From Hyphomonadaceae bacterium (GTDB taxonomy: Bacteria; Pseudomonadota; Alphaproteobacteria; Caulobacterales; Hyphomonadaceae), in the NCBI GenBank assembly GCA_030697555.1, contig JAUYPV010000049.1:62001-126000 (forward strand): a DNA stretch of 64,000 nt, written 5' to 3'. This document shows positions 39,349 through 56,398 of the stretch, piece by piece (within the stretch, counting starts at the first letter, position 1; every line of letters begins with the position of its first letter). The notes under the pieces are model-generated. The model ran no database searches, had not been told where the DNA came from, and was given only the letters and a program-made list of their open reading frames with translations. A program made the translations under genes and the position numbers.

Positions 39349-40095
39349 CTACACCGACATGATCGGCGTGAACTGACCTGCATATTCGGTCGCCTCGTTG
39401 AGAAGCACATCACCTTGCTGCACCCAGCAATGCGCGCCGAACGGTTGCGCCTGAACGCCGAAGACCCAGGCTGGAAACAACTTTCGTCGCGCCAAGAATT
39501 CAATCAGCGCCAAACCGTCGTAGAGACACAGATAGCCTCGCGGATACCAAGGCCTCAGTTTGCGATAGATCGCAGTGTGCCCGCGGAGCGCATCAAGATC
39601 ATTGGCCCCCTTGCCGGCAACCGCTTTCCGACGACGCACCCCGTGAACAACGTCGTAGATATGCTGCTTCTTGAGAAGTTGTGAGGCACGATAGGAAGCC
39701 AGGAAGAAGTCCAGGACGTCAGCGACTCCAACCCGGACACCCTGCCCCAACTTTCCCCCTATTCCGAACGCGCGCTGATCGTCGGGATGGAAGATATTCA
39801 CAACCGGGCGCAGGAGTGACTTGAAGGCCTGAAAGTTGTCCCTGCCCTGCGCGTCCTCCCTTAGGAGGTGGGCGTCGAGCAGGTCCTGTCGGTGTACCTC
39901 AAAGCCTTCGCGTATCGCGGCGTCACAATCACGATCATCGCAGTTCGCTGGGCTGATGACGAGTGGAATGGCGCTGTAGTCGTCGCTCTTCAGATCCAGA
40001 AAAATGCCTTGGCCCTCGGTGACGCAAAAGTACACTTCACTGCCAAGCACCAGTTGGTTTCCAGAAGGATTTGATAGTTCGGACGACGCAGCCAT
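39349..40095 (-). CDS. Lasso peptide maturation protein B (leader-binding plus protease)
   Basis: 248 residues. The N-terminal 80 residues (VYFCVTEGQGIFLDLKSDDYSAI) look like the PqqD-like leader-recognition domain (B1), and the C-terminal part is the transglutaminase-like leader protease (B2). The protease has Cys in YLCLYDGLALIEFL (near 188), His in FGAHCWVQ (near 222) and Asp in GDVLLNE (near 228), ending QFTPIMSV as in many B2 proteins. It would recognise the precursors at 44676 and 44915 and cut before Gly13. It lies 71 bp downstream of the ECF sigma gene, probably in one operon. Its last codons are the right copy of the 23-bp repeat. Confidence 0.85.
   Translation of the reverse strand: MAASSELSNPSGNQLVLGSEVYFCVTEGQGIFLDLKSDDYSAIPLVISPANCDDRDCDAAIREGFEVHRQDLLDAHLLREDAQGRDNFQAFKSLLRPVVNIFHPDDQRAFGIGGKLGQGVRVGVADVLDFFLASYRASQLLKKQHIYDVVHGVRRRKAVAGKGANDLDALRGHTAIYRKLRPWYPRGYLCLYDGLALIEFLARRKLFPAWVFGVQAQPFGAHCWVQQGDVLLNEATEYAGQFTPIMSV
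39353..39375 (+). repeat. Right copy of 23-bp direct repeat (candidate attR)
   Basis: Identical to 7202-7224 in the same orientation; here it encodes the C-terminal residues of the intact lasso B protein. Integration at this gene end would leave the gene functional, as commonly seen for islands that target 3' ends. Confidence 0.6.
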
Positions 40096-40166: not shown

Positions 40167-40742
40167 TCAATCGTCGGTATCCGAGAGCTGGCGCATGGCC
40201 AGGGCCATGTGTTTTTCCACGGTCTTTATGTTGACCTCCAAGCGTCGCGCGATCTGAGCGTAGGTCAGTTCGTCCACGCGATGCAGAAGGAATACCTCCC
40301 GACGCTTCGGCGGCATCGCATCGATTGCGGCCATAACCCGCCTTAAGCGCTGGGCGCCTATTACATGGCGTTCAGGATCGGCGACCGCGTCCACAGCGTT
40401 TTTCCCCGCTTCGTCGGATGTGAACGTAAGACGTGTGGTCCTGCGTCGGAACCGATCGATTGTGATGCAGCGGACAACGTGCCGGAGCAGGTTGTCAAGC
40501 TTGGGTATGTTCTCGGAGCGCGAACGCTCGACCATCTTTACGAAGGCGTCTTGGTAGAGGTCTTCCTCGTCCTGAGACTCAACTCTCTGTCCTACGTCGC
40601 CCAACATAGCCCTGCGCTTGCGGAAGGCGCCGTCCAGACGCGCATCGAATTCTGAGCGTTCCGTTGTCGTAGGCTGCCGACCACCAGCGATCGCTTGCTG
40701 CCGTTCGACCTTTCTCGCCGGTATGGAGTCTGATTTTGCCAT
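40167..40742 (-). CDS. ECF sigma factor (FecI-like)
   Basis: 191 residues from ATG 40742; the longer frame runs through the divergent promoter and is unlikely. Region 2 is seen in DLYQDAFVKMVERSR and LLRHVVRCITIDRFRRRT, and region 4 in AIDAMPPKRREVFLLHRVDELTYAQIARRLEVNIKTVEKHM. With FecR at 41503 and the STN-containing receptor at 47332 it forms a surface-signalling set. It is directly upstream of lasso gene B and divergent from the first XRE gene. Confidence 0.85.
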   Translation of the reverse strand: MAKSDSIPARKVERQQAIAGGRQPTTTERSEFDARLDGAFRKRRAMLGDVGQRVESQDEEDLYQDAFVKMVERSRSENIPKLDNLLRHVVRCITIDRFRRRTTRLTFTSDEAGKNAVDAVADPERHVIGAQRLRRVMAAIDAMPPKRREVFLLHRVDELTYAQIARRLEVNIKTVEKHMALAMRQLSDTDD

Positions 40743-40778
40743 AGACGACCGACCAAATATTAGCCCCAGGGCAGAGTG

Positions 40779-40816
40779 CGAGAATACGGAAAAAATGTCT
40801 ACGCGAAAAACGCGTA
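40779..40816 (+). promoter_or_regulatory. Duplicated promoter element and palindrome before XRE gene 1
   Basis: CGAGAATACGGAAAAAATG (40779-40797) recurs almost exactly at 41125-41144, each copy ending 55 bp before an XRE gene start. It is followed by TACGCG-AAAAA-CGCGTA (40800-40816), a perfect inverted repeat. These are likely operator and promoter parts for the divergent ECF and XRE genes. Confidence 0.6.
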
Positions 40817-40852
40817 TAGTTAGGCAGCCGAATCTCGAGGTTCGGCTCCGCG

Positions 40853-41110
40853 ATGCCAAAGTCCGTGTTCGGCGGCTCACATACGCATCTGGTTGATGTG
40901 CTTAAGGCCGCCCGCAAGAATAGCGGCCTTACGCAGGCCCAGCTTGGCACCCGCGTTGGTAAAAGCCAAAAATTCGTATCTCTGATTGAGCAAGCGCAGC
41001 GTCGTGTTGACGTTCTGGAGTTTTACGCTCTTGCCAAAGCTCTTGGCGTTTCTCCCGTCAACCTGTTCTCTGCCGTTGTTCAGTTGCTGCCAGATGAGAT
41101 TGAGATCTAG
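40853..41110 (+). CDS. XRE-family regulator 1
   Basis: 85 residues, almost entirely one helix-turn-helix domain (LKAARKNSGLTQAQLGTRVGKSQKFVSLIEQAQRRVDVLEFYALAKALGV). It is a close tandem paralogue of the next gene, sharing MPKS, the SQKFVSLIE-type recognition helix and the RRVDVLEFYALAKAL block. It probably binds the palindrome upstream and may gate the divergent ECF sigma and lasso B genes. Confidence 0.8.
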   Translation: MPKSVFGGSHTHLVDVLKAARKNSGLTQAQLGTRVGKSQKFVSLIEQAQRRVDVLEFYALAKALGVSPVNLFSAVVQLLPDEIEI

Positions 41111-41199: not shown

Positions 41200-41457
41200 A
41201 TGCCCAAATCGATATTCACCGGTGCTCACAAGCATCTCGTCGCCATCCTCATCTCTGCGCGGCGAAAATCTGGTCTCAATCAAACCCAGCTTGGAGAGCT
41301 GATTGGAAAGGACCAAAAGTTCATCTCCCTGATTGAACGGTCCCAGCGTCGTGTCGACGTCCTAGAGTTTTATGCGCTGGCGAAGGCACTAAATCTCGAC
41401 CCTGTGAAGCTGTACGCTTCCCTGGTCAAACGCCTTCCGGAGAAAGTGGACATCTAG
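41200..41457 (+). CDS. XRE-family regulator 2
   Basis: 85 residues, one helix-turn-helix domain (ISARRKSGLNQTQLGELIGKDQKFISLIERSQRRVDVLEFYALAKALNL). The recognition region (KDQKFISLIERSQ) differs slightly from its neighbour, so DNA targets may overlap. It is convergent with fecR, whose stop is 46 bp away. Together the two XRE genes separate the ECF gene from fecR, which are normally adjacent. Confidence 0.8.
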   Translation: MPKSIFTGAHKHLVAILISARRKSGLNQTQLGELIGKDQKFISLIERSQRRVDVLEFYALAKALNLDPVKLYASLVKRLPEKVDI

Positions 41458-41502: not shown

Positions 41503-42453
41503 CTAGTTGGCCAGCGAATCTGCATTCTTCCTTCTGATCACCCGCGCGTCGAGCAAGGCAGCGAGTGTATCGATCGCTCCCTCGCGATTTTCGACCTGGA
41601 GACGGATGGTCACGCGTCGATCCAGCAGCTCAGGCTGAGCAACCAGCAGCTTTCGGTCGAAGTATCGATTGAAATCCTCAATTACTTCTCGAACCGTTGC
41701 GTCCTCGTAGGTGACCACCCGCATGCGCCATTCGGACACCTGCGAGGGCGGTATTGATACGGGGGACGGAGGTGTTGCGGCGACGGGCAAAGATGCGGGG
41801 AGCCGCAGTAACTGGCCGGCGCTCAGATTCGCGATCACCGACTCCCCTGATCCTGTCATGCGGCAGAGCTGGACCTGCCCCTCACTAACTGAGACCTGGA
41901 GCACGCCGTCTCTCTGCCGAACGTTGAAGGAGGTGCCCACGGCGCGAACCTCAAGGCCGCCGACACGCACGACAAAAGGCTTGTCCGGATCGGGCTTCAC
42001 GGAGAACGCAGCTTCTCCCTCCGAAAGGGTCACAAGGCGCTCGGTCTCCGTAAACTTGTAGCTGACGTTCGACGCGACGTTGACTGCAATGACGCTGCCA
42101 TCCGGCATCGACTGCGTCTTCTGCTGACCCTCAGCCGTGACGATTGGTGTGTCCGCCGGAGCTGACATCAGGCTGGCGGTTGCAATCCCGCCAATCAGCA
42201 GGGCAGCTACCGCCGCCGCAGCGGGAAGGAACAGAGACCGAGGTTTCTTCGCCGGCGTCGGCTCGCTACCCTTCAGAACGGCAAGATCATCCCAGAGCTC
42301 ACGCATGGCATCGAGCGCCGCCATGTTGCGGGGGTCAGCCTTCCATGCGTCGAATTCAGCTCGCTGCTCGACGAGCATGACCCCTGCCCGCTCGGCCGCA
42401 AACCATTTGGCGGCCTGATCCTGGCGACTGAGCTTTGTCGCATCGGAGGACAT
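41503..42453 (-). CDS. FecR-family anti-sigma/signal protein
   Basis: 316 residues from ATG 42453, with GGGAGAG upstream. An N-terminal DUF4880-like cytosolic domain (AAKWFAAERAGVMLVEQRAEFDAW) is followed by one membrane segment (LFLPAAAAVAALLIGGIATASL), the FecR domain (GQQKTQSMPDGSVIAVNVASNVSY, VRAVGTSFNVRQ) and an STN-like DUF4974 end (VREVIEDFNRYFDRKLLV). It passes the ligand signal from the receptor at 47332 to the ECF factor at 40167. Confidence 0.9.
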   Translation of the reverse strand: MSSDATKLSRQDQAAKWFAAERAGVMLVEQRAEFDAWKADPRNMAALDAMRELWDDLAVLKGSEPTPAKKPRSLFLPAAAAVAALLIGGIATASLMSAPADTPIVTAEGQQKTQSMPDGSVIAVNVASNVSYKFTETERLVTLSEGEAAFSVKPDPDKPFVVRVGGLEVRAVGTSFNVRQRDGVLQVSVSEGQVQLCRMTGSGESVIANLSAGQLLRLPASLPVAATPPSPVSIPPSQVSEWRMRVVTYEDATVREVIEDFNRYFDRKLLVAQPELLDRRVTIRLQVENREGAIDTLAALLDARVIRRKNADSLAN

Positions 42454-42508
42454 CTCATCTCTCCCAGCATCGCGCAGCCCAGCTGCCGGTCCGATTGTGG
42501 AGTCACAT

Positions 42509-42613
42509 ATGACGGAATCCGAAGACAGAAAATTCAAACCAGCAGGAATCGAAGAAAAAGAAAAATCCAGCGATTGGGAGGTAGGGAGGCGGCGTCCTCG
42601 CGCGGCTAACTAG
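42509..42613 (+). CDS. Small ORF upstream of lasso C, 34 residues
   Basis: ATG 42509 has TGGAG eight bases before it and encodes a highly charged peptide (MTESEDRKFKPAG, then EEKEKSSDWEVGRRRPRAAN). It lacks the T-x-G cleavage pattern of a lasso precursor. It overlaps the fecR promoter region. It may be chance. Confidence 0.25.
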   Translation: MTESEDRKFKPAGIEEKEKSSDWEVGRRRPRAAN

Positions 42614-42731: not shown

Positions 42732-44549
42732 TTGGATCGGTTTATCGCATTCGTATGGGATCCAGAGCGGGTAGATCGCACCGAACGTATATCGCGATGG
42801 ACCTCCCAGCTGATGGCCAAATCCAAGGCTTGGACCGAGGCCTTCACCGGTCGTGGCCTCACAATCTTGTCGAGCGCACCCCCCGACAGCACCCCTCGCC
42901 TGAGCGTGCTGACGGATGGGAAAGGCGTGGTCGTCGGAACACTCTTTGAGACCGGATACGAGGAACACGGGCCTCAACTCCGCCTCGATCAGGAAACGAC
43001 CGACCGCGTTGTTGTCAGTGGCGGCCAAGAGCTCCTTTCTCGCTTCTGGGGCCACTACGTCGCTTTCATTCAAGATCCCGATGCGCGCCTCACTCATATC
43101 CTTCGCGATCCGTGTGGCGCTACGCCTTGCTTCTACACGCACGTCAATGGCGTTGATGTGCTATGCTCGTTCGTAGACGACATTGCCGAATTGAACGGTG
43201 TGCGCTTCTCAATCAATTGGGACTCTGTGCGCGCCTACTTCCTGTCAAACCATTTCATCAACACGCGGACCGGACTTAGCGAACTAACGGAGTTGCTCCC
43301 CGGGCAGCGGTTGACCTGGCGATCGAGCAATCGGCCCGTGACGAGCTCGCTGTGGAATCCCGTTGCGATTGGTGGCGCCCCGAACCTGCAATCGTACGAG
43401 GCAACGCGAGAGGACTTTCGAATAGTCACCGAAAGGTGTGTCGGCGCATGGGCCCGCGCCGGCGGAAGCGTCCTTGTGAGGATGTCGGGCGGCTTGGACT
43501 CCTCGATCGTCGCCGGTCTTGTGCGACGGGCAAGCGAAAACGGGGTGTTGGGAGTGCATTTTGTCAACCGAGGCTATGAAGCCTTTGAACTCGGCTTGGC
43601 GCGTGAAGCATCAGCACACGCCGGCATCCAGCTCGTCGAGCAGACCTTTGACCGGGCCACCATCAGCTTTCGCGCCGCCGCGAGCGGGCCGCGCTTGGCG
43701 CGGCCAACGAAGCAGCTGCTAGGAACCGACGCCGACGCCAAACTCATCGAGATCTGCAAAATCACGGGCGCCCAGACTGTAATGGGCGGCCACGGTGGAG
43801 ACAGTATATTCCTCCAGCGATCCATCGCGGGAGACGCGCTGACCGACTACCTGCGGATCAAGGGCCTTGGACGCGATATCTGGCGCGTCGCCTATGACAC
43901 GGCCGTTTTGCTTGAGTCTTCGATCTGGCACGTTGGGAAGGATGCGGCGTTGAAGGTGATCCGCGGCCGGCGATGGAATGCGGATACATTGCTTGAGGAT
44001 GCCAAGGTCAGCCCGCACCAGTTGCTGACGCAGGAGTCAATTGCTTCAACATCGCCAGAATCGCTGACGTCGATGTGGTTGGCCGAAGCAACGGATCTGC
44101 CCAACGGAAAGTCCGAACAGCTTCGCAATATTCTGGCGCTTCGAAACTACCATCCTGCCAGAGGTCATGCCCTCGCCCACAACGCGGTCCATCCGCTTAT
44201 ATCGCAACCTCTTGTCGAACTCGCCCTGAGGACGCCAACGTATCTTTTCAGCTTTGGTGGCGCCGACCGCGCCCTCGAGAGAGACGCATTTCGCGACTGC
44301 ATCCCCGCCTCTGTGGCGCGAAGGTACAACAAGGGCTTCGTCAACCACAGTGTCATCGCGAGCGTTGTCGACGACCTGGACTATATTCGCGAGTTCGTCC
44401 TGGGCGGCTCGTGTGTACGCAGCGGGCTCCTAGATTGTCGTAAAGTCGAGCGCCTCGTAACCTCCGAGCAGTTGCTGCAGGGCCAGGGCATCGGCGCTCT
44501 GATGGACCTCGTTGCCGTGGAGTCGTGGCTCGCGCCTTGGAACGCCTGA
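42732..44549 (+). CDS. Lasso peptide macrolactam synthetase C (asparagine synthetase-like)
   Basis: 605 residues from a TTG start (MDRFIAFVWDP, typical for this family). The N-terminal half is a degenerate glutamine amidotransferase-like domain without the Cys2 of AsnB. The C-terminal half is the ATP-dependent synthetase with the PP-loop MSGGLDSSI near residue 250. It adenylates the side chain of core Glu9 and joins it to the Gly1 amine to form the ring. Precursor genes follow on the same strand 126 bp downstream. Confidence 0.85.
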   Translation: MDRFIAFVWDPERVDRTERISRWTSQLMAKSKAWTEAFTGRGLTILSSAPPDSTPRLSVLTDGKGVVVGTLFETGYEEHGPQLRLDQETTDRVVVSGGQELLSRFWGHYVAFIQDPDARLTHILRDPCGATPCFYTHVNGVDVLCSFVDDIAELNGVRFSINWDSVRAYFLSNHFINTRTGLSELTELLPGQRLTWRSSNRPVTSSLWNPVAIGGAPNLQSYEATREDFRIVTERCVGAWARAGGSVLVRMSGGLDSSIVAGLVRRASENGVLGVHFVNRGYEAFELGLAREASAHAGIQLVEQTFDRATISFRAAASGPRLARPTKQLLGTDADAKLIEICKITGAQTVMGGHGGDSIFLQRSIAGDALTDYLRIKGLGRDIWRVAYDTAVLLESSIWHVGKDAALKVIRGRRWNADTLLEDAKVSPHQLLTQESIASTSPESLTSMWLAEATDLPNGKSEQLRNILALRNYHPARGHALAHNAVHPLISQPLVELALRTPTYLFSFGGADRALERDAFRDCIPASVARRYNKGFVNHSVIASVVDDLDYIREFVLGGSCVRSGLLDCRKVERLVTSEQLLQGQGIGALMDLVAVESWLAPWNA

Positions 44550-44583
44550 CATCCACGCGGCGCTTCATCGCGCGCCAGACAAA

Positions 44584-44600
44584 AATATTCCGGAAATATT
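44584..44600. promoter_or_regulatory. Palindrome before precursor genes
   Basis: AATATT-CCGGA-AATATT lies between lasso C and the first precursor, and a perfect GCGCATGCGC follows at about 44612. Either could control a separate precursor promoter. Confidence 0.4.
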
Positions 44601-44675
44601 CTGACGTGAGCGCATGCGCGTATGAGACGCTCTCCATGTCGCGGCCCCGCGACGATCCACGACAGGAGAAACGTT

Positions 44676-44789
44676 ATGATCAGGCTTGGTCAAGTTTCAA
44701 AAGAGACCCGTGGCCCCGTCATCCCGAACTATTGGGAAGACACCATCGAGTTCCTCGATGGCAACGTCATCCGGAAGCCGATGGGCTGA
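44676..44789 (+). CDS. Lasso peptide precursor A1
   Basis: 37 residues from ATG 44676, with AGGAG seven bases upstream. The leader is MIRLGQVSKETR, with Thr at -2 before the cut, as lasso proteases require. The LG and TR-G pattern resembles astexin-type leaders. The core of 25 residues (codons 44712-44786) starts GPVIPNYWE, then DTIEFLDGNV, and ends RKPMG. Gly1 and Glu9 give a nine-residue ring; bulky residues in the tail (Phe, Leu, Ile, Arg, Lys) could be plugs. My hand sum for the cyclised, unmodified core is about 2841.4 Da monoisotopic. An in-frame ATG at 44622 would give a 30-residue leader, but the ribosome site favours 44676. Confidence 0.85.
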   Translation: MIRLGQVSKETRGPVIPNYWEDTIEFLDGNVIRKPMG

Positions 44790-44914
44790 CCAGCTCGAAG
44801 GACGCGCCGGGCGTGGTTCAATTCATCTCGTCCGGCGCCGCCCGAGGTGACCTGCCACATGCTTATCGAAAGGCTCCCCGCAGCAGAACCCACCCTGTGG
44901 ACAAGGAGTGTCCA

Positions 44915-45094
44915 ATGGCCACCCTAGGCTCCTTTACTGCTTCGACGCGCGGCACAGTCGTTCCCAATTATGTCGAAGATCCTGTCCTGTGCGATCCTGG
45001 CTCGCTTTTTCGTTGCCTCGGACCTGCAAAACGCGACGTCTTCGGCCGGATGATCTTTTCAGTGGAGCTGCGAAGCAATGCAATACCACTCTAA
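44915..45094 (+). CDS. Lasso peptide precursor A2, unusually long tail
   Basis: 59 residues from ATG 44915, with AAGGAG six bases upstream. Leader MATLGSFTASTR and core start GTVVPNYVED are clearly paralogous to A1, again giving Gly1-Glu9. After that the sequences part. The frame runs on to a 47-residue core with Cys14 and Cys22 and ends antisense within the last 36 bp of the isopeptidase gene. Known cores are about 15-26 residues. Either the tail is trimmed, or a frameshift has replaced the original end. Confidence 0.7.
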   Translation: MATLGSFTASTRGTVVPNYVEDPVLCDPGSLFRCLGPAKRDVFGRMIFSVELRSNAIPL

Positions 45095-47338
45095 GCGGTC
45101 GTGCGCGCGCTCGTCTTGAGGAAGCGCGCATTGCCGGTCCCGCATTTCACGCCAGCGCGCCGCCTGCGCTTCTCGATCCACGCCCGTCGGTTCGATACCT
45201 TTCAGCCAGAAGTTGATCCACTCAACGTTGCGATCGTAAACCGCAAGCCGCTGACGAGGATTGTTCTTGTAATGATACGCATCCGCGAACACGTACATCT
45301 CGACCGCTCTGTCGTATTCTTGCAGCGCGCCATAAAGCTGCATCATGCCCGGGTATTCAGCTTCGGGCAGTTGCATGAGAAGCGGCGTACGAATCTTTTC
45401 AGCGTTCCACGCGGGAGAGTCTCTGAGAATGCCGTCGCGAGCATCGTAGGGGCGCGAAAGGCCTTGCTGTCTGGCTCTGGCTTCACAGGATCGGTAGTTG
45501 GCGGTGAGATAGCAGGCGACCGCGTCAAACGAGCCGCCGGTGGTGACCATGGCAGCGGTGAATTTGCGCGACACAGTTAGCGCATAAGCGGTGTGTGTCG
45601 TGCTCCCGCTGAAACCCGAAAGCGCGACGCGATCCGGATCGACCAATCGAGCGTCGGAGAGGGCGTCGACAGCATTCTGGAAGAAATCGAGGGCGCTCAG
45701 ATCGGCCGTGACAGGCGTCATATCGAACCCAGGCGCCCGTCGGACGACGCTGCCCCCCAAGTCGACGCAGACAGCAGCATAGCCAAGAGACGCAAGTACG
45801 TGCTCGGGCACGTCCCTCCCGGAACCGCCCTGCAGGAACCCTCGGCATGTGTATGACGTGATGACGAGAGGCCTAAGAGGCGTCGCCCCTGGACCACGCG
45901 GAAGAATCACATTTCCAACAGTGGTATTCCCGTAGCGATCCGTGAGTGCGATTTTCGAAGAAACACCCAGGCTGGAAACCGGCACGTTCGGGTTTGGGTC
46001 AAACACGGAATCGACGCGCCCGGTTTCCAAACCGATAGAAACGACGCGCGGCGGAAGGCTCGCGGCAGCGGCGATGCATATCGCCTGATCGCTCGCTAGC
46101 TGACAGGCTCCAACGGTTCCGGACTCGGCTGAGCCGAGCACACCTTGCTCTTCCGCCACTATCCGAACAACGTCAGTGGGAATGTTCCAGATGGCGAGAC
46201 GGGAGACACCAAGCGTTTCCGTCTGCAGCACGAGCTCACGGTAGTTCGCTCGCCATCCGACTATCTGAATCAAATCAGCCTGGAGGCAGACCGGGTCCTC
46301 GCACGATGTGGGAGGAGTGGCTCCCTCTTCCCGGCTGCGCCATGATGGTCGCTTCCCAGATCGTGGCCATTGTCCGCCGCCCCCATCCAACGCCGGGACT
46401 TCTTCTATGGATGCAACCAGATCACCACTGTCCAGTGTTGGTGGCTTGACTGCAGCTATTCCCGACGCGGCGCTGAAGCCTGGCGAGAGCTGGCTCGCGA
46501 CAAGAAAGGCGCGCGCGTCCTCGCCTCCCAGCCTTGTTGGAGCTTTGCCTCCGATCTGAAGCATCACGCGAAGCGGCTGGCCGCCCAGTAGAGTTCCGCG
46601 GCGGCCCGACATGGCATTCTCGAGATGCCTGTATGTCGCCATGCGGCCGTTCACTGGAAAGCTACTCGAAATCGGAAAGCCCTTAATGACCGTCGGATCC
46701 ATCAGGACCCCGTGTTCGTATTCGGCAGTTTCAGCTTGCTTAATCTCTCTGCGGGTAGCGCCAGCTGCTGCGTAGATGAGCGCGCCGTCCCCTTCGATCT
46801 CAAAGCCAACGATGTCGGCCTCATCGCGGGTAACTTGGCTGACCTGCGTGCCGTCACGCTGCGCTCGCCAGATCTGCATTTCCCGCCCGGAAAGCTTGCG
46901 GAAGTAGATCCAGTTGCTGTCGGGCGACCATTGCGGCGCCTCGCCTGCGATGCCGCCATTGTTGTTCCAGAGCGGGTCGCCGCCATCGACGAGACCAGTT
47001 GTCTCGCCGTTTCGAAGGTCAATCACGCGCCACGTAAGTCCCGTCGTTGTCGAGGCGGTGTCTTGATGCTCAACGCGAATGACTACGAACTGCTGGTTTG
47101 GAGCAACCGCGAGTACAGATATCAATCGCAACTCGACCAGTTCGCGCGTTGAAAGTTCATGGGCGGCAGGCGTTTCCGTATGCACGCTCCCGACGGAAGA
47201 TCCGACGCCAGCTGCGCAGCCCGCCTGGAGAAACGTTGCCGCCAGGAAGGCGAAGGCCGCACTAGCCCGTTTCGAAAAACCCCACAATGCATCACAAAAC
47301 TGACAGTGCCGTTTCGATTGAAATGGAAATCTCACCAT
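45059..47338 (-). CDS. Lasso peptide isopeptidase (AtxE-like, prolyl oligopeptidase fold)
   Basis: 759 residues. The N-terminus has a signal sequence with a lipobox-like LQAGC near residue 41, so it may be a lipoprotein. A beta-propeller-like region (QWSPDSNWIYFRKLSGREMQIW) is followed by an alpha/beta hydrolase domain with nucleophile SGFSGST near 577 and a C-terminal His (AYHYKNN) near 689. Isopeptidases of this family open the macrolactam of the cognate lasso peptide. The gene overlaps the receptor gene by 7 bp and is translated after it, so uptake and opening are coupled. Confidence 0.85.
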   Translation of the reverse strand: MVRFPFQSKRHCQFCDALWGFSKRASAAFAFLAATFLQAGCAAGVGSSVGSVHTETPAAHELSTRELVELRLISVLAVAPNQQFVVIRVEHQDTASTTTGLTWRVIDLRNGETTGLVDGGDPLWNNNGGIAGEAPQWSPDSNWIYFRKLSGREMQIWRAQRDGTQVSQVTRDEADIVGFEIEGDGALIYAAAGATRREIKQAETAEYEHGVLMDPTVIKGFPISSSFPVNGRMATYRHLENAMSGRRGTLLGGQPLRVMLQIGGKAPTRLGGEDARAFLVASQLSPGFSAASGIAAVKPPTLDSGDLVASIEEVPALDGGGGQWPRSGKRPSWRSREEGATPPTSCEDPVCLQADLIQIVGWRANYRELVLQTETLGVSRLAIWNIPTDVVRIVAEEQGVLGSAESGTVGACQLASDQAICIAAAASLPPRVVSIGLETGRVDSVFDPNPNVPVSSLGVSSKIALTDRYGNTTVGNVILPRGPGATPLRPLVITSYTCRGFLQGGSGRDVPEHVLASLGYAAVCVDLGGSVVRRAPGFDMTPVTADLSALDFFQNAVDALSDARLVDPDRVALSGFSGSTTHTAYALTVSRKFTAAMVTTGGSFDAVACYLTANYRSCEARARQQGLSRPYDARDGILRDSPAWNAEKIRTPLLMQLPEAEYPGMMQLYGALQEYDRAVEMYVFADAYHYKNNPRQRLAVYDRNVEWINFWLKGIEPTGVDREAQAARWREMRDRQCALPQDERAHDRLEWYCIASQLH

Positions 47339-50034
47339 GCTTTGGAGAGGCCCACCACGACGAGTGTACCGAGCGGATTGGCGTTCGCTGGATCGAAGCC
47401 GACCGGGAGGATGATGTTCGCGCCCAAACCTGTCCGCAGAAGCGGCGGATCGGCGTCCAAGAGATTCTGAATGCTCAGACTGAGGCGCGTACCATCCTTC
47501 GACGCCGCACTCCCCGCTCTTCCGAAATCATACGTCAGCGCGAGATCGACGGTCGTCCAGCTGTCGATTTTTTGCTGGCCGATCGGCGCCTGCCTGTTCG
47601 TATAGCTGTCGACGTAGTTCAGGCCAATCGTGCCGCTGAAGGCGCCATTGGTGAGACCGGCGTGAAAGCGGCCCCGCCAGTTTGCTGGCTGGCCGGGAAC
47701 GTCGGTCGCCGGCAGAACGGCGCCGGCGCCCGAACCCTGTTTCTCGAACTTCAGTATGTGTGTGACGTTTGCGCCGAGGTTGAGATCACCCCATGCCGTA
47801 TCGAATTGGTTTGACGCATTGAAGTCGATCCCTTGCTGGCGCGAAAGAGCAAGATTCTTGAAACGCGTATCGTAAATCCACACATCCGTGCGAGCCGCCA
47901 AAGCTGCAGCGGCCGCCGCGGGATCGGTGACATTGATGCTTGTCGTGTTGAACAACAGGCGTGTCGCGCGAAGAGCGTCTTCGATAAACGCGGGAGATGG
48001 CGGACGATAGATGAGATCAGGGAGGAGGCTCGGGTTCACGAAAGGGTTCAAGCCGCCGGTCGGAGCGACTTCGATGCGATTGGCGTAGTCGACGTCGTAG
48101 TAAGTGGCGCTGAATCGCAGCCCATCGTCCCAGGTGGGTTCGTAGTCGAAGCCGAGCGTGTATGAAGTGGCCGTTTCGGATGAGAGATTGGCGTCGCCAT
48201 AACCCGTCACCGCCAAGAGAATGGATGGCTGACCGCCCACAGTCTCCGGTGTGAGGTAATGCAAACCGCCGGTATTATCGAGTTGCGTCAGCGAGGGTGC
48301 GCGGAAGGACCGGCCGTAGGTGCCCCTGAAGCGTAGCGACTCCACCGGCTCCCATGCAAAGCCCACCTTTGGATCGGTTGAATCACCGAAGTCCCGCGCG
48401 ACCGAGGTTTCGCTTGTGTCCTGGTAGTCGGTGTATCGCGCTGCCAGGCTGAGCGCGAACGACCGCACGAGCGGGACTTGCTGGCTCGGTCCGATCAGTG
48501 GCGTCCACACTTCGGCGAATGCGTAGGTGGATCGGCGACCGAGCGACCCGGCGCTTTGAATGCTCGTGATCGGGCTGCGGCCCTTGAATTCTTCTTCCAG
48601 TACTCCGGCGCCGACGGAAAATCGCAGGTCGCCACCGGGCAGACTTGCGAGCGTGCCATCGAGCTTTCCCATGACATCGAGCTGAGAGTTGCGCGTGCCG
48701 AAGTTCGAGATAGTTGTCGTTGGAGGAACGCGGTTCGGCCTGACCAACGACAGGAACCCGTCGACGTCAATTTCCGAATACGCCGCCGAAAGGTCCGCCA
48801 CGAGATTGTCGGTTACTTCATACTCCGCTGCAAGCGAGGCGAACACCTGATCAGTTTGGCTGGTGTAGCGACTGAACGTTCGGTTGGCGAGAACGGGACT
48901 ACTGAGATTCGAATAGGAGTTCTTCACCTTCCTCCAGCTTTGCCCGAAGTCCGCATTCAGCGTCAGTCGGTCTGCAAGACCTTGCGATGCGGTCACAAAG
49001 ATGTGGTGACGCGTGTCAACGGGCGTCAGGTTTCCAGGACCGGCGGCCGCTGCGTACGATCGGTCGGAAGTCTCAAGGGCAGATGCCGCGTGGAAACTAT
49101 AGGACGCGAGACCATGTCCGCCGTCCCATCTGCTTCCGAAAGTTTGGCTCGCGTCCGACTGGCGCAGTCCACCCCGCGTAACTCCGCCGTACGATAGTCG
49201 CGTCTCAGCACCTTCGAAGTCGTCGCGGAGAATGAAATTTATTACGCCCCCAATGGCGTCCGAGCCGTAGATCGCGGATGCCCCATCCGCCAACACCTCA
49301 ACGCGGTCCAGCGCTGCCGCTGGGATCAGCGAAACGTCGGCGCTGCGACCACCATTGGAAAGAGAAATCCGCCGGCCATTCACGAGCGTGAGTGTGGTTC
49401 CAACCCCGAGGCCGCGTAGATCGACGGAAGTGACCGCATCCGGGTTGGTCCCTGCGGTGTTGGCGCCCGGCGCATACTGGGAAAAGGTTCCGAGGTTTTG
49501 GGGTAGTTTGCCGACGAATTGCTCGGTCGTGACGGCCCCTGTCCGGGCAATGTCCGCGCTTGTGTAGACATCGACGGCCGAGGAAGCAGGTTGGGCCCCT
49601 CGGATGTTCGTGCCGGTAACGATAACTCTATCGCCAGCCTCGTCGGCAGGCGGGGCGGTCGTCGGCGGGGGCGCAGCTTCCGCTTGATCCTTGGCGACAA
49701 TCTTCACCGCGTTAGACTGGACGAACACATAAGTAAGGCCGGACCCTTGCAACAATCGATCAAGGGCCGAGGCGGCGCTCATCTGGCCTCGAACCTCGGG
49801 ACCGCGCTTGCCTTCGACCAGCGATGTCGCGGCCAGAACAGACAAGTCCGCCTGACGCCCCAGGCTAAGTAGGGCCGACGAAAGCGGCTGGCTTTCTATG
49901 TTGAATGTGTAGCTCTGCGTCTGCGCGCAAGCTGGCGAGATAGCCGGCAGGGTGATGGCAAGCGGCGCTGCCGCCAGGAGAGCTGCCCGGAAGGGGCCAA
50001 TGCTAACTCGTCTCCGACTTACGTTCCGCTGCAT
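47332..50034 (-). CDS. FecA-type TonB-dependent receptor with STN domain (lasso cluster)
   Basis: 900 residues from ATG 50034, with GAGGGCGGG upstream. After a signal peptide (ITLPAISPACAQ), residues about 40-115 form an STN (secretin/TonB N-terminal) domain (YTFNIESQPLSSALLSLGRQ), then come the plug (DRVIVTGTNIRGAQPASS, VEVLADGASAIYGSDAIGGV) and a barrel ending in aromatic LSKAW. The STN domain contacts FecR, so this receptor both imports and signals. By context the ligand is one of the two lasso peptides. Confidence 0.9.
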   Translation of the reverse strand: MQRNVSRRRVSIGPFRAALLAAAPLAITLPAISPACAQTQSYTFNIESQPLSSALLSLGRQADLSVLAATSLVEGKRGPEVRGQMSAASALDRLLQGSGLTYVFVQSNAVKIVAKDQAEAAPPPTTAPPADEAGDRVIVTGTNIRGAQPASSAVDVYTSADIARTGAVTTEQFVGKLPQNLGTFSQYAPGANTAGTNPDAVTSVDLRGLGVGTTLTLVNGRRISLSNGGRSADVSLIPAAALDRVEVLADGASAIYGSDAIGGVINFILRDDFEGAETRLSYGGVTRGGLRQSDASQTFGSRWDGGHGLASYSFHAASALETSDRSYAAAAGPGNLTPVDTRHHIFVTASQGLADRLTLNADFGQSWRKVKNSYSNLSSPVLANRTFSRYTSQTDQVFASLAAEYEVTDNLVADLSAAYSEIDVDGFLSLVRPNRVPPTTTISNFGTRNSQLDVMGKLDGTLASLPGGDLRFSVGAGVLEEEFKGRSPITSIQSAGSLGRRSTYAFAEVWTPLIGPSQQVPLVRSFALSLAARYTDYQDTSETSVARDFGDSTDPKVGFAWEPVESLRFRGTYGRSFRAPSLTQLDNTGGLHYLTPETVGGQPSILLAVTGYGDANLSSETATSYTLGFDYEPTWDDGLRFSATYYDVDYANRIEVAPTGGLNPFVNPSLLPDLIYRPPSPAFIEDALRATRLLFNTTSINVTDPAAAAAALAARTDVWIYDTRFKNLALSRQQGIDFNASNQFDTAWGDLNLGANVTHILKFEKQGSGAGAVLPATDVPGQPANWRGRFHAGLTNGAFSGTIGLNYVDSYTNRQAPIGQQKIDSWTTVDLALTYDFGRAGSAASKDGTRLSLSIQNLLDADPPLLRTGLGANIILPVGFDPANANPLGTLVVVGLSKAW

Positions 50035-50165: not shown

Positions 50166-50915
50166 CTACCGCCCGCGTGGCCGGGTCCTTCGCCCTGCCC
50201 GAAACAGCTGACCAGTTTCGAGCATTCGCCAGGCCGCCTGCTCCTGACTTCCTGCATCCAACCGGACGCTCGCCTTCTGTCGCAGAGTGCGGACGGTCGA
50301 GATCTTGACGTCGAGTTGGCTCGCAACATCGGCCGGACGCTCGCCAAAGACCGTCGCGCGATACAGAAATTCGTGCTCGCGCGCAGTCAATTGCTCGGCG
50401 TCACTGAGCTTCGGCTTCTGAAGTTCCAGGACCTGTTGGTATGCGTAATTGCCAATACGCATGCAGAGCCGGATGCGGTCTGGATCAAGGCGCTCGGATG
50501 ACGTCAATGAACACGATGCGCCGACAATGACAGACCGGAGCGCCTGCGAAACGCCCTCGCGTTGGCCAACCAGCTCGCGCAGTTGGTCGAACCATTGCTT
50601 CTGCGGCTTCTTCCTTTGGTCTCGCCGCGAATGAACTGGCGGCCAATACAGCGGGCCGCTGCTCTGTTCGACCGCCGCAAACATTGGATTGAACGAGGCG
50701 CCTCGCTCGTATGCGAACAACCAGTCGATGGCCGGAGTTGGCCAGCTGTGTACCAATACCCCGAGGCTTCTCTGGTCTTCGATGCGGCCGTGTGTTGCAA
50801 TCGCGAAGCCGCTGACTCCCAAGTCGCGGAATGTCAGATCGAGCAAATCTTTTACGGACCGCGCAGTCTGTGTCTGGTCGCACGCTTCGACAAAAGCCCA
50901 ATACTTGCTGCTCAT
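50166..50915 (-). CDS. LuxR-type autoinducer-binding regulator (solo)
   Basis: 249 residues. The N-terminal domain fits the LuxR autoinducer-binding fold (HSWPTPAIDWLFAYERGASFNPMF, then YWPPV), but the usual Asp of the DP motif is Asn (NP). The C-terminal helix-turn-helix is LTAREHEFLYRATVFGERPADVASQLDVKISTVRTLRQKASVRL. No luxI-type synthase is in the window. It lies 131 bp upstream of the receptor gene on the same strand and may link lasso genes to cell density or to a foreign signal. Confidence 0.75.
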   Translation of the reverse strand: MSSKYWAFVEACDQTQTARSVKDLLDLTFRDLGVSGFAIATHGRIEDQRSLGVLVHSWPTPAIDWLFAYERGASFNPMFAAVEQSSGPLYWPPVHSRRDQRKKPQKQWFDQLRELVGQREGVSQALRSVIVGASCSLTSSERLDPDRIRLCMRIGNYAYQQVLELQKPKLSDAEQLTAREHEFLYRATVFGERPADVASQLDVKISTVRTLRQKASVRLDAGSQEQAAWRMLETGQLFRAGRRTRPRGR

Positions 50916-51114: not shown

Positions 51115-52872
51115 CTACGAGTCCCTCTGCGTGTCCCAAAGCCGGCCGTAGACGCCGTTCGCAGCCATCAGTTCGTCGTGACTGCCTTGCTCCACCACTC
51201 TGCCGTTCTGCAAGACAATGATACTCGCTGCGCTTGCCGCAAGCGCAAGGCGATGGGTGACGATCAGCGTTGTACGTCCCGCAGCCATCGCCATCAGGTC
51301 CGTACATACGTCCTTCTCAGTTCTGGCATCGAGCGCTGACGTGGCTTCGTCGAGCAGCAGGATGTCAGCGTCCTGGAGCAGCGCCCTCGCGATCGCGACG
51401 CGCTGTCTTTCACCTCCCGACAGCTTGAACCCCTTGTCGCCCACGACCGTGTCCAGGCCGTCGCGCAAACCCGCAAACAACCCATCCAGTCTCGCGATGC
51501 GGAGCACACGTGCGATGTCCTCGTTACTGGCGTCTGGCTTTGCAAAGACGAGATTGTGACGAAGCGACGCGTTAAAAAATGTGCCTTCCTGAGCGACGAC
51601 CGCAATTCGACGTCGAACCAGAGATGTTGCAAGCTCTGATAAGGGTGCTCCGTCAATCAGCACCCGACCGGCATCCGGGGACAGGTGTTTTTGAAGCACG
51701 CGCAATAGCGATGTCTTGCCCTCTCCAGTGGCTCCCACGATCGCCACGGTTGTTCCGGCGGGGACAGAGAAACTCACGTGCGAAAGGACGCGGCGCTCCG
51801 CGCCATACGAAACCGAAACCTCGTCGAATTCGATCGTCGGCGCTGTGTTTCGCAGACGCGCTCCGACCGAATCAAGGCCTTCATCGGTGACGGGTTCGGT
51901 TGGTTGAGCGAGTAGATCCTTCCAACCAGAGAGATACGCCGCACCCTGCGTCAAATCTCTAATCGCATATCCGCTCATTTCCAGCGGGCCGATTATCTGC
52001 AGCATGTAAGTGGTCAAAAGGAGGAAATCGCCAGCCGACATCTGGCCGTTGCGAACAGCCTCCACGCCGAGCCAGATCGAGCAAGCCACACTCGTGACGA
52101 AAACGGCAGCGGTAGCCAGCCCCGTCTCGAACCTACGGTGCGAGCAGGCTTTCCATCCTTTTTCCGTCTCGCGGGCCGCCCGAGCGTAGCTTTGTCCCAC
52201 ACGCTGCTCGGCCGTGCAGTTCTTGATTGTCTCCACATTGGCGAGACCTTCCGAGAGGAGACCTGACGTCTCGACCTGCCTTTGCAGCGCCCAATTTATC
52301 GGAGCACTCGTCCGCCGCACGCCCCAGGCGAAAACGCACACATACGCGACGATCGTCAGGCTAACGACGACCCAAACCTTCGTATCGAAGTGGCTGCCCA
52401 CCACCCACAGGATTGCAGCCATCTGCACGACGATCGGAAAGAGGGACGCGCACGCCAGTGAAAGCACCATCCGAACGCCCTGCAGGGCATGGCTGTGCGT
52501 CTGCATAAGGGCGCCCGGATTGGCGCTCAGGTGAAAATTCATCGGGAGGCGTATCAGGCGGTCGAATGACAGTTCGCTGACGCGACGCTGAAGCGCCTGG
52601 TCGCTTGCTGCATAGTAAAATGACTGCACATGGCCGGCCAGCCTGCCGATAGAGAGAGCCGCCAGGTAGGCGCCCGCCAGACCAACCACTCCGGGGCCAA
52701 CCTCGCCGCCTGACAGCCCATCAACGAGCTGGGCCAAGAACATCGGCGCCAACGCCGCCGAAGTCGCGACGATTGCAGCAAGCACGAGCGAGGCGATTAT
52801 GCGGACACGGATCGGCGCGTCCAGCGCGCGGCCGAACGCCGTCCAAAGATCGCGATCGAGGATCGCCGTCAT
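51115..52872 (-). CDS. ABC transporter, fused membrane and ATPase domains (lasso exporter D)
   Basis: 585 residues from ATG 52872. An N-terminal six-helix membrane domain is followed by an ATPase domain with Walker A IVGATGEGKTSLL, signature LSGGERQRVA, Walker B ILLLDEATSAL and the H-loop VTHRLA. It has the half-transporter form of McjD-like lasso exporters and of MsbA-like proteins. Its position 199 bp upstream of the LuxR gene makes export and self-protection the likely task. Confidence 0.75.
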   Translation of the reverse strand: MTAILDRDLWTAFGRALDAPIRVRIIASLVLAAIVATSAALAPMFLAQLVDGLSGGEVGPGVVGLAGAYLAALSIGRLAGHVQSFYYAASDQALQRRVSELSFDRLIRLPMNFHLSANPGALMQTHSHALQGVRMVLSLACASLFPIVVQMAAILWVVGSHFDTKVWVVVSLTIVAYVCVFAWGVRRTSAPINWALQRQVETSGLLSEGLANVETIKNCTAEQRVGQSYARAARETEKGWKACSHRRFETGLATAAVFVTSVACSIWLGVEAVRNGQMSAGDFLLLTTYMLQIIGPLEMSGYAIRDLTQGAAYLSGWKDLLAQPTEPVTDEGLDSVGARLRNTAPTIEFDEVSVSYGAERRVLSHVSFSVPAGTTVAIVGATGEGKTSLLRVLQKHLSPDAGRVLIDGAPLSELATSLVRRRIAVVAQEGTFFNASLRHNLVFAKPDASNEDIARVLRIARLDGLFAGLRDGLDTVVGDKGFKLSGGERQRVAIARALLQDADILLLDEATSALDARTEKDVCTDLMAMAAGRTTLIVTHRLALAASAASIIVLQNGRVVEQGSHDELMAANGVYGRLWDTQRDS

Positions 52873-53109
52873 CCGTTCCAACCCGATAGCGCAATAACCG
52901 CCCACAACGGCTAGATCTGCGACGTGACAACCGTCCCGATCTTACAACTCTAGCCGGAAATTTTGCGGCTCTCGTCCCCGGAATGACGACGACTGGCAGA
53001 AATTGAGATGCCAGGCTCCCCGCTGATGAGCGATTCGCGAGGCCACGGAGGAGTTCATCTGCCGGTCCACCTTCATCAATGCGATCTACCTCTTGGTGAG
53101 GCGAGAACG

Positions 53110-54504: not shown

Positions 54505-54640
54505 AATGGTTCATATATCGACCACTAAATCCTTTAATGGTCGATATATGGACCATTATCATCATCCCCTCTTGTCAAGGCGATCATAATGGTTCATATA
54601 TCGACCATTATCGACGTTAGTGGTCACTATATAGAGCATT
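54505..54640. promoter_or_regulatory. Four hipBA operators
   Basis: Four 22-bp imperfect palindromes of the form AATGGT-N10-ACCATT lie at 54505-54526, 54536-54557, 54588-54609 and 54619-54640. Start-to-start spacing is 31, 52 and 31 bp, so they form two symmetric pairs. The centres are AT-rich (ATATAT). They precede hipB and fit cooperative HipB binding. Confidence 0.85.
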
Positions 54641-54645
54641 ATCCC

Positions 54646-54993
54646 GTGAAAAACTCAGCTTCCAAGTCAGCGATTCCAACCGCCGTGCGCCGGGCACTCG
54701 TCAAACTTGGCGGAGATATTTCCGTTGCGCGCCGGCGTCGCGAAATCACGGCGCAGCTCATGGCCGACCGCGCCTTCATAACGCGCGGCACCTTGCGCCG
54801 CATCGAACACGGCGATGCGGCAGTTTCAATCGCAAACTATGCGACTGTGCTGTTCGTGCTTGGAATGACCGAGCGGCTAGCTGAACTCGCAGATCCCGCG
54901 GCAGATCCTCTAGGGCGCGACTTGGCTGAAGAACAGTTGCCCAAGCGCGTCCGACCGCGCGAACCGCGGGAGACCGTTCAAAATGGAACGTGA
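54646..54993 (+). CDS. hipB: HipB-like antitoxin
   Basis: 115 residues from GTG 54646. An ATG at 54589 would place two operators inside the coding region, so the GTG is preferred. A helix-turn-helix domain is seen (AVRRALVKLGGDISVARRRREITAQLMADRAFITRGTLRRIEHGD, then ATVLFVLGM). The C-terminal tail is charged and Pro/Arg-rich. It overlaps hipA by 11 bp and should repress the operon through the four operators. Confidence 0.8.
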   Translation: MKNSASKSAIPTAVRRALVKLGGDISVARRRREITAQLMADRAFITRGTLRRIEHGDAAVSIANYATVLFVLGMTERLAELADPAADPLGRDLAEEQLPKRVRPREPRETVQNGT

Positions 54994-56398
54994 GCTGAGT
55001 GTTTACATCGACCTGAAAGGGGAAGCCGTCCTCGTCGGACGAATGTGGGTGAAGGAACGTGCGGGCAAAGAGTCAGCGACGTTCGAATACGACGCGACCT
55101 GGTTGAAGCATCCGCAGAAGTTCGCATTGGCCCCCACCCTGATGCTGACGTCAGGAAAATTCCATTCGGCTAACGACCTCTTCAGCGCGTTTTCCGATCC
55201 GGCCCCGGACCGTTGGGGACGAAAACTCATGCGCCACTTCGAGCTGGAGTCCGCAAAGGCGGAAGGACGGACAGCACGTACCTTGCTGAGCTCGGACTTT
55301 CTTGCGGGCGTCGACGATGAGATCCGGCTGGGCGCTCTCCGGTTCAAGCGACCGGGCGACGACAAGTTTCTCGCCCATACCGGCCGTCCAGTGCCGCCTT
55401 TGATCGAGCTCGGCGAACTGCTCTCCGCCACGGACCGGATTGAAAAAGGAAAACCCAAAAAGAGGGATATCCAGATCCTTCTGGCGCCAGGTGGATCACT
55501 CGGCGGCGCCAGGCCGAAAGCGTCGATACGCGATCATGGAATACTTCACATCGCGAAATTCCCCTGGGCCAGGGACGAATGGCCAGTCATTCTGTGGGAA
55601 GCAGTCCTGCTCAAACTTGCGACAAGCGCTGGTATCGCGGTGGCGCCCAACAGGGTGGCGCGCGTCGGCACAAAGCCGGTTCTCCTGACCGAGAGATTCG
55701 ACAGGGAGGCCGACAATATACGTATTCCATTTATGTCCGCCATGACCGCCCTGGATGCTCAGGATCACAGCGAGGGACGGAGCTACATAGAGATTCTCGA
55801 TGTCATCCGTCAGATCGGGGCGCTTCCCATTGAGGACGCCAGGCAGCTCTGGCGGCGCATGGTGTTCAACGTGCTTGTTTCAAACACGGACGATCACCTG
55901 AGGAACCACGGATTTCTCTGGGCGAGCCGGGGTTGGCGGCTTTCACCCGCCTACGACATGAACCCGGCCCCACCGCACGTCACTGCCCGCATGCATGTCC
56001 TTGCGTTGAATGAGCTGGATGCGACGTCATCGATCGACATCGTGATGTCGGTCGCGAAAAGCTTTGGGCTTTCTCTCAACGAAGCCATGAGGATCGCCGG
56101 TGAAGTGGGGAACGCCGTCTCTGCCTGGCGGACGGCTGCGGCTGCGCAGAAGCTCACAAAGGACGACATCGACTTCATGTCTGAGGCTTTCGATCACACC
56201 GATCTGAAAGGCGCCATTGCGCTGGGCGCAAAGGCGCCGCGTATACTCACCCTCCCCAAGCCAGTGGCGAAAAAGCCGGCCAGCGGAAAGGTCGCCTCGC
56301 CTGCCAAGGCCGCAGGCGACACGGCAGCCAAACGGCCAGCCGCCAAGAAGAGGGCAAACCGGAAACCCGCCCAAACTCGAAAGCGCAGGCCGACATAG
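54983..56398 (+). CDS. hipA: HipA-family kinase toxin with basic tail
   Basis: 471 residues. N-terminal subdomain (YIDLKGEAVLVGRMWV) is followed by the kinase fold: GGSLGGARPKA near 170, ILHIAKFP, and catalytic NTDDHLRNHGFL near 301, then SPAYDMNP. HipA kinases phosphorylate translation factors such as glutamyl-tRNA synthetase and cause growth arrest. From about residue 423 the protein has an Ala/Lys/Pro-rich tail (AKKPASGKVASPAKAAG and similar), like histone H1 tails, not typical of HipA. Confidence 0.85.
   Translation: MERELSVYIDLKGEAVLVGRMWVKERAGKESATFEYDATWLKHPQKFALAPTLMLTSGKFHSANDLFSAFSDPAPDRWGRKLMRHFELESAKAEGRTARTLLSSDFLAGVDDEIRLGALRFKRPGDDKFLAHTGRPVPPLIELGELLSATDRIEKGKPKKRDIQILLAPGGSLGGARPKASIRDHGILHIAKFPWARDEWPVILWEAVLLKLATSAGIAVAPNRVARVGTKPVLLTERFDREADNIRIPFMSAMTALDAQDHSEGRSYIEILDVIRQIGALPIEDARQLWRRMVFNVLVSNTDDHLRNHGFLWASRGWRLSPAYDMNPAPPHVTARMHVLALNELDATSSIDIVMSVAKSFGLSLNEAMRIAGEVGNAVSAWRTAAAAQKLTKDDIDFMSEAFDHTDLKGAIALGAKAPRILTLPKPVAKKPASGKVASPAKAAGDTAAKRPAAKKRANRKPAQTRKRRPT

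Follow-up and report, generated by a model that had tools for sequence, protein, structure and literature searches.

A tandem lasso precursor gene whose long, cysteine-bearing tail probably reflects a lost stop codon

A lasso-peptide cluster with two precursor genes

The stretch of Hyphomonadaceae DNA analysed here (64,000 nucleotides, hereafter the window) holds an entire lasso-peptide cluster, comprising genes for B, an ECF sigma factor, two small HTH proteins, a FecR-like protein, C, the precursors A1 and A2, E, a TonB-dependent receptor, a LuxR-type regulator and an ABC transporter. C, A1 and A2, on the plus strand, converge on E, on the minus strand, and B is located apart. The adjacent B and C genes that a lasso precursor requires are both present: B, the leader peptidase (39349–40095, minus strand), matched PF13471 and scored 63 bits against NF033537 (cut-off 33), and C, the asparagine-synthase-like macrolactam synthetase (42732–44549, plus strand), matched PF00733 (E = 1.2e-17), with NF033561 and NF033535 below cut-off. 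Between them lie genes for a FecI-like ECF sigma factor (40167–40880, minus strand; PF08281), a tandem pair of 85-aa HTH proteins related to HipB-type antitoxins (40853–41110 and 41200–41457), which is also kept in related clusters, and a FecR-like anti-sigma factor (41503–42537, minus strand; NF007296, E = 1.9e-19, below cut-off). E (45059–47338, minus strand) is predicted to encode a lasso peptide isopeptidase of the AtxE2 family (S9; PF00326), and its match to NF033523, the NCBI model for that family, reached 398.8 bits (E = 5.3e-119) and so fell 1.2 bits short of the curated cut-off of 400.

Further along, domain searches identified a TonB-dependent receptor with an STN domain (47332–50034, minus strand), a LuxR-type regulator with an autoinducer-binding domain (50166–50915, minus strand; PF03472), itself conserved in the cluster by synteny, and an ABC transporter (51115–52905, minus strand; PF00005/PF00664), assigned to the cluster by synteny with the related contig G096 and followed by a GntR-like gene. 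The LuxR-type gene, placed between the TonB and ABC genes, suggests density-dependent control. Relatives carry the same cluster genes in the same neighbourhood. With an AtxE2-type isopeptidase (at the near-threshold score given above), a TonB receptor and a sigma/anti-sigma pair, the cluster is, by gene content, of a known kind, namely an isopeptidase-containing proteobacterial lasso cluster. Just beyond it, at 54589–56398, an HTH gene is followed by a putative HipA-like kinase gene, both named from sequence alone.

The first precursor, A1 (44676–44789, plus strand), consists of the leader MIRLGQVSKETR and the 25-aa core GPVIPNYWEDTIEFLDGNVIRKPMG. The second, A2 (44915–45094, plus strand), is preceded by a ribosome-binding site, AAGGAG (44903–44908, plus strand), and translates as MATLGSFTASTR / GTVVPNYVEDPVLCDPGSLFRCLGPAKRDVFGRMIFSVELRSNAIPL, that is, a 12-aa leader with Thr at −2 (44915–44950, plus strand) and a 47-aa core. 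Residues 1–24 of this core, GTVVPNYVEDPVLCDPGSLFRCLG (44951–45022, plus strand), are homologous to other precursors and contain the predicted Gly1–Glu9 macrolactam ring and both core cysteines, Cys14 and Cys22. Residues 25–47 (45023–45091, plus strand) form a C-terminal extension past the point at which relatives end, and this extension overlaps the 3′ end of E in antisense by 36 bp (45059–45094). The 47-residue core, its two cysteines and the 36-bp overlap with the isopeptidase gene, all described in the original prediction, were confirmed by translation and coordinates.

The proposal that A2 is a paralogue of A1 held up equally well. Among the 1541 stop-to-stop frames of the window, the A2 frame ranked second in similarity to A1 (score 67), behind A1 itself and well ahead of the next frame (36), and the highest score obtained when A2 was shuffled 5000 times was 39. 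Thr-2, Arg-1, Gly1, Glu9, Asp10 and Gly17 of A2 are in register with the other precursors. Here we took as diagnostic of a lasso precursor a leader Thr at −2, a Gly (or similar) at core position 1 and an Asp/Glu at core positions 7–9, and found that A2 shares Thr-2, Gly1 and Glu9 with every short-leader relative compared within this genus. The benenodin-family model NF033522 (33 bits needed) gave 15 bits for A1, from the leader only, and no match for A2. As judged from these alignments, A2 is a real second, paralogous, tandemly duplicated lasso precursor gene.

Where the cores of related precursors end

Four related loci with this cyclase lineage were used for comparison. Their C proteins are 60% (G096, which is contig L037, from MAG Hyphomonadaceae Bin_23_2_sub), 59% (L038, from MAG Bin_23_8), 42–43% (C115, a contig from the genome of the window itself that carries a second lasso cluster) and 38–39% (G099, which is contig L039, from MAG GS22 6604) identical to that of the window. 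Searches of order, class and phylum samples, of a related genus and family and of viral contigs returned no closer relatives, a single-sequence scan of genome contigs gave no match, and no conspecific sequence was found for A2. A further short-leader precursor, MIALGKVSVETKATGVQLLVEEETGQFYI at L052:4916–5005, has Ala at core position 1.

The precursor cores of these relatives are short, at 23–25 residues, and line up at Gly1, Glu9 and Gly17; the extended last precursor of G099, discussed below, is the exception. The syntenic second precursor of L037 and L038 has the 25-aa core GLITPHFLEDLIIRIHGQFFPCPSA (Phe at position 22 in L038) followed by a stop in the same frame as window A2; in the one MAG measured, the gap from there to the end of E is 38 bp. 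By the original prediction, a short second core in another frame in relatives would have marked A2 as a decayed copy; the second core proved short, but the frame was the same. Between L037 and L038, five codons of A2 have changed silently and one by replacement (dN 0.012, dS 0.21), a pattern close to that of C, which indicates that purifying selection maintains the short form as a gene. Directly after its stop, a 1-nt indel separates the two loci, so the stretch downstream is non-coding in that frame there. Pairwise dN/dS values of A2 against other precursors were saturated and were not relied on. The sole replacement is Cys22/Phe22, and Cys14 is absent from both sister orthologues, leaving Cys22 as the only core cysteine in L037 and none in L038; Cys22 as a fixed conserved feature was rejected because L038 has Phe.

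Of all the precursors, the sole one of C115, with the core GPAVPNRVEDQILQTPGSLYPKAG, resembles the A2 core most (13 of 24 residues; score 61, with no other above 43). This precursor ends exactly after the residue aligned to A2 Gly24, where A2 reads on. The A2 core aligns without gaps to residue 24 with both the C115 core and the 25-aa second cores of L037 and L038.

Upstream of A1 lies a palindromic box, AAATATTCCGGAAATATTC (44583–44601, plus strand), a candidate promoter or operator that matches perfectly nowhere else in the window, where 0.01 matches would be expected within 3 mismatches. The box also stands ahead of the first A gene in C115, G096 and G099; it is conserved before the first precursor in all four related clusters and sits upstream of the first precursor only. 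It may serve the cluster's ECF factor as a promoter or operator. A strong stem-loop follows A1 (44803–44850, plus strand; z −1.85), and stem-loops likewise follow the other non-last precursors (A1 of L037 and L038, A1 and A2 of G099) and the single C115 precursor, with z between −1.5 and −3.4 over the whole set (other coordinates, L037:8068–8108, L036:3998–4050 and L036:4205–4255). None was found after the tested last precursors abutting E (z about 0, with values of +0.5, −0.1 and +0.9), namely window A2, L037 A2 and G099 A3. These values come from single-sequence folding, and consensus folding added no support from covariation (term +1.08). Given that a stem-loop follows A1 and that the box stands only before the first precursor, A2 would probably be expressed at a lower level, through readthrough past the A1 stem-loop.

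Origin of the long tail

The original prediction had raised the possibility that the 3′ end of A2 was lost by a frameshift. That an end was lost is probable, with the relatives stopping at 23–25 residues, but the frameshift did not survive inspection of the reading frames. Past the start of the core, the A2 frame reaches its stop at codon 48, the second forward frame at codon 34 and the third has none in the stretch, so that no forward frame of window A2 stops near core residues 24–26 and no other-frame stop would restore a core of 23–25 residues. We therefore rejected a frameshift as the cause of the tail, the core being colinear and gap-free to residue 24; neither a frameshift nor a miscalled homopolymer would explain the missing end, whereas loss of an in-frame stop does.

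Our preferred reading, to which we assign a probability of about two in three (0.68), is that A2 is an ordinary lasso precursor that lost its in-frame stop and that residues 25–47 are unselected readthrough. The ancestral core would have had ~24–25 residues, and the stop at its end would have been lost in the window's genome; translation would then run for 22–23 extra codons, through a short spacer and the antisense of the E 3′ end, to a chance stop at 45092. By chance alone, at least 22 codons would stay open with a probability of ~0.5 when the local sequence is shuffled and of ~0.6 when the antisense strand of E is taken, and thus neither the length nor the composition of the tail calls for a function. 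From the first core codon to the WYC/WFC codons conserved close to the E terminus, the distance is 129 nt in the window versus 131 nt in L037, arguing that no large insertion produced the tail. The alignment with the E proteins of relatives ends at residue 753 of 759, so that the last E residues, inside the overlap, are not conserved. As to the change that removed the stop, substitutions and compensating indels align equally well. By analogy with established lasso biochemistry, B would cut the leader after Arg-1, C would close the Gly1–Glu9 isopeptide and thread the chain, and E could linearise the product; residues 25–47 would be a passive appendage, left dangling, trimmed by proteases or a sign of incipient decay of A2. 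Two observations run against stop loss: the A2 leader, ring residues and ribosome-binding site are intact, with no visible decay, and the last precursor of G099 is similarly extended, with Cys13, Cys22 and a 35-bp overlap with E.

The latter precursor, A3 of three (GPPVRGYSETPDCLTAGSYYRCPNSRADTLRKTVLGLGPACLKAPSRRAWGREPE; L039:4293–4496), has a 55-residue core with three cysteines, the third in its extension. Together with A2 it invites the alternative that A2 is a genuine long-core lasso with a Cys14–Cys22 disulfide (loop–tail or tail–tail, class IV-like) and 38 residues after the ring in the mature product. Both extensions exceed 20 residues, and the chance that one such sequence would match the cysteine placement of A2 is ~0.0035 (0.073 × 0.048, under a rough assumption of 3% Cys). 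Pandonodin offers a precedent for a long tail that contains a disulfide (PMC13352647), and disulfides can arise with no dedicated enzyme (PMC13352647, PMC9266682). Against this stand the short sister orthologues, in which Cys14 is missing and position 22 is Cys or Phe; the cysteine pair expected to be conserved among orthologues in class IV is not (L037 has Cys22 only, L038 no core Cys), and for that reason membership of A2 in a disulfide class is unsupported. The 47-aa core also exceeds the longest-tailed lasso of a 2026 review (33 aa). The initial view that a long core with a disulfide would be unusual was accurate for this family, in which relatives have 23–25 residues, but has to accommodate the 33-aa pandonodin (PMC13352647). 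On balance we consider a long disulfide lasso unlikely, and the cysteine-bearing tail probably does not represent a new kind of peptide.

The kinship of the two long precursors weighs in the same direction. Their extensions show no significant similarity (p = 0.31), the three G099 precursors group together in a neighbour-joining tree with column bootstrap (86%), and the two overlaps with E, 36 bp for A2 and 35 bp for G099 A3, differ in place relative to the conserved E end. A common origin of the extensions is, on these three counts, unsupported; judging by the tree and alignments, A2 and G099 A3 are probably not orthologous, and the long form probably arose independently. The parallel would then reflect either two independent stop losses, each in a last precursor that abuts E without a stem-loop, or convergent selection. 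It would be bolder, and in our estimation improbable, to conclude that terminal precursors of the short-leader lineage at least twice gained a 22–32-residue, E-overlapping extension together with a Cys13/14–Cys22 pair, yielding disulfide lassos longer than any described.

A2 might also be a decaying pseudogene, unused in this strain, with the missing stop as one of its lesions. Its leader has diverged (ASTR vs KETR), its stop is lost and it has no stem-loop of its own downstream; yet it retains Thr-2, Gly1, Glu9, Asp10, Gly17 and an intact ribosome-binding site, there is no internal stop or frameshift, and the leader of the orthologues has diverged at the same place (STCTR) under purifying selection, so that we hold decay to be an unlikely account as well. 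A sequencing or assembly error is very unlikely: the genome is a draft of 176 contigs and short homopolymers occur nearby (T5 at 45006, A4 at 45028), but one indel could not yield the observed frame, no other forward frame ending near 24–25, and several wrong bases would be needed.

Comparison with known lasso systems

In gene content the window resembles isopeptidase clusters of the astexin, benenodin and sphingopyxin type, sharing A, B, C, an AtxE2-family E, TonB, ECF sigma/FecR and GntR-like genes and tandem precursors (PMC9266682). It differs from them in the arrangement of C, A1 and A2 converging on E, in the separate position of B, in its 12-aa leaders and in its conserved neighbours, which include two small HTH genes and a gene for a LuxR-type regulator. 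The combination of an isopeptidase with an ABC transporter in one lasso cluster is rare and known from rubrinodin, whose cluster, like that of the window, also has a TonB receptor and FecI/FecR (PMC9266682); the likeness is one of gene content. In the window, the ABC transporter (51115–52905) and the isopeptidase (45059–47338) belong to one conserved cluster.

More generally, an oversized RiPP core in a single genome can reflect stop loss, as revealed here by orthologues and by a second cluster of the same genome. If the long form of A2 were nonetheless made and threaded, it would push out the known limit of lasso-tail length and would test whether such tails are tolerated by the cyclase and the isopeptidase. 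Among the closest known systems is pandonodin, a class IV lasso of 33 aa with a tail–tail disulfide and an 18-aa tail, the longest tail according to the 2026 review (PMC13352647). A2 is like pandonodin in its long tail and in the two cysteines past the predicted ring (PMC13352647). It is unlike pandonodin in its 47 residues, in having short relatives without the cysteine pair and in that any disulfide in it is hypothetical; a 47-residue disulfide lasso, if that is what A2 encodes, would be longer than pandonodin (33 aa; PMC13352647).
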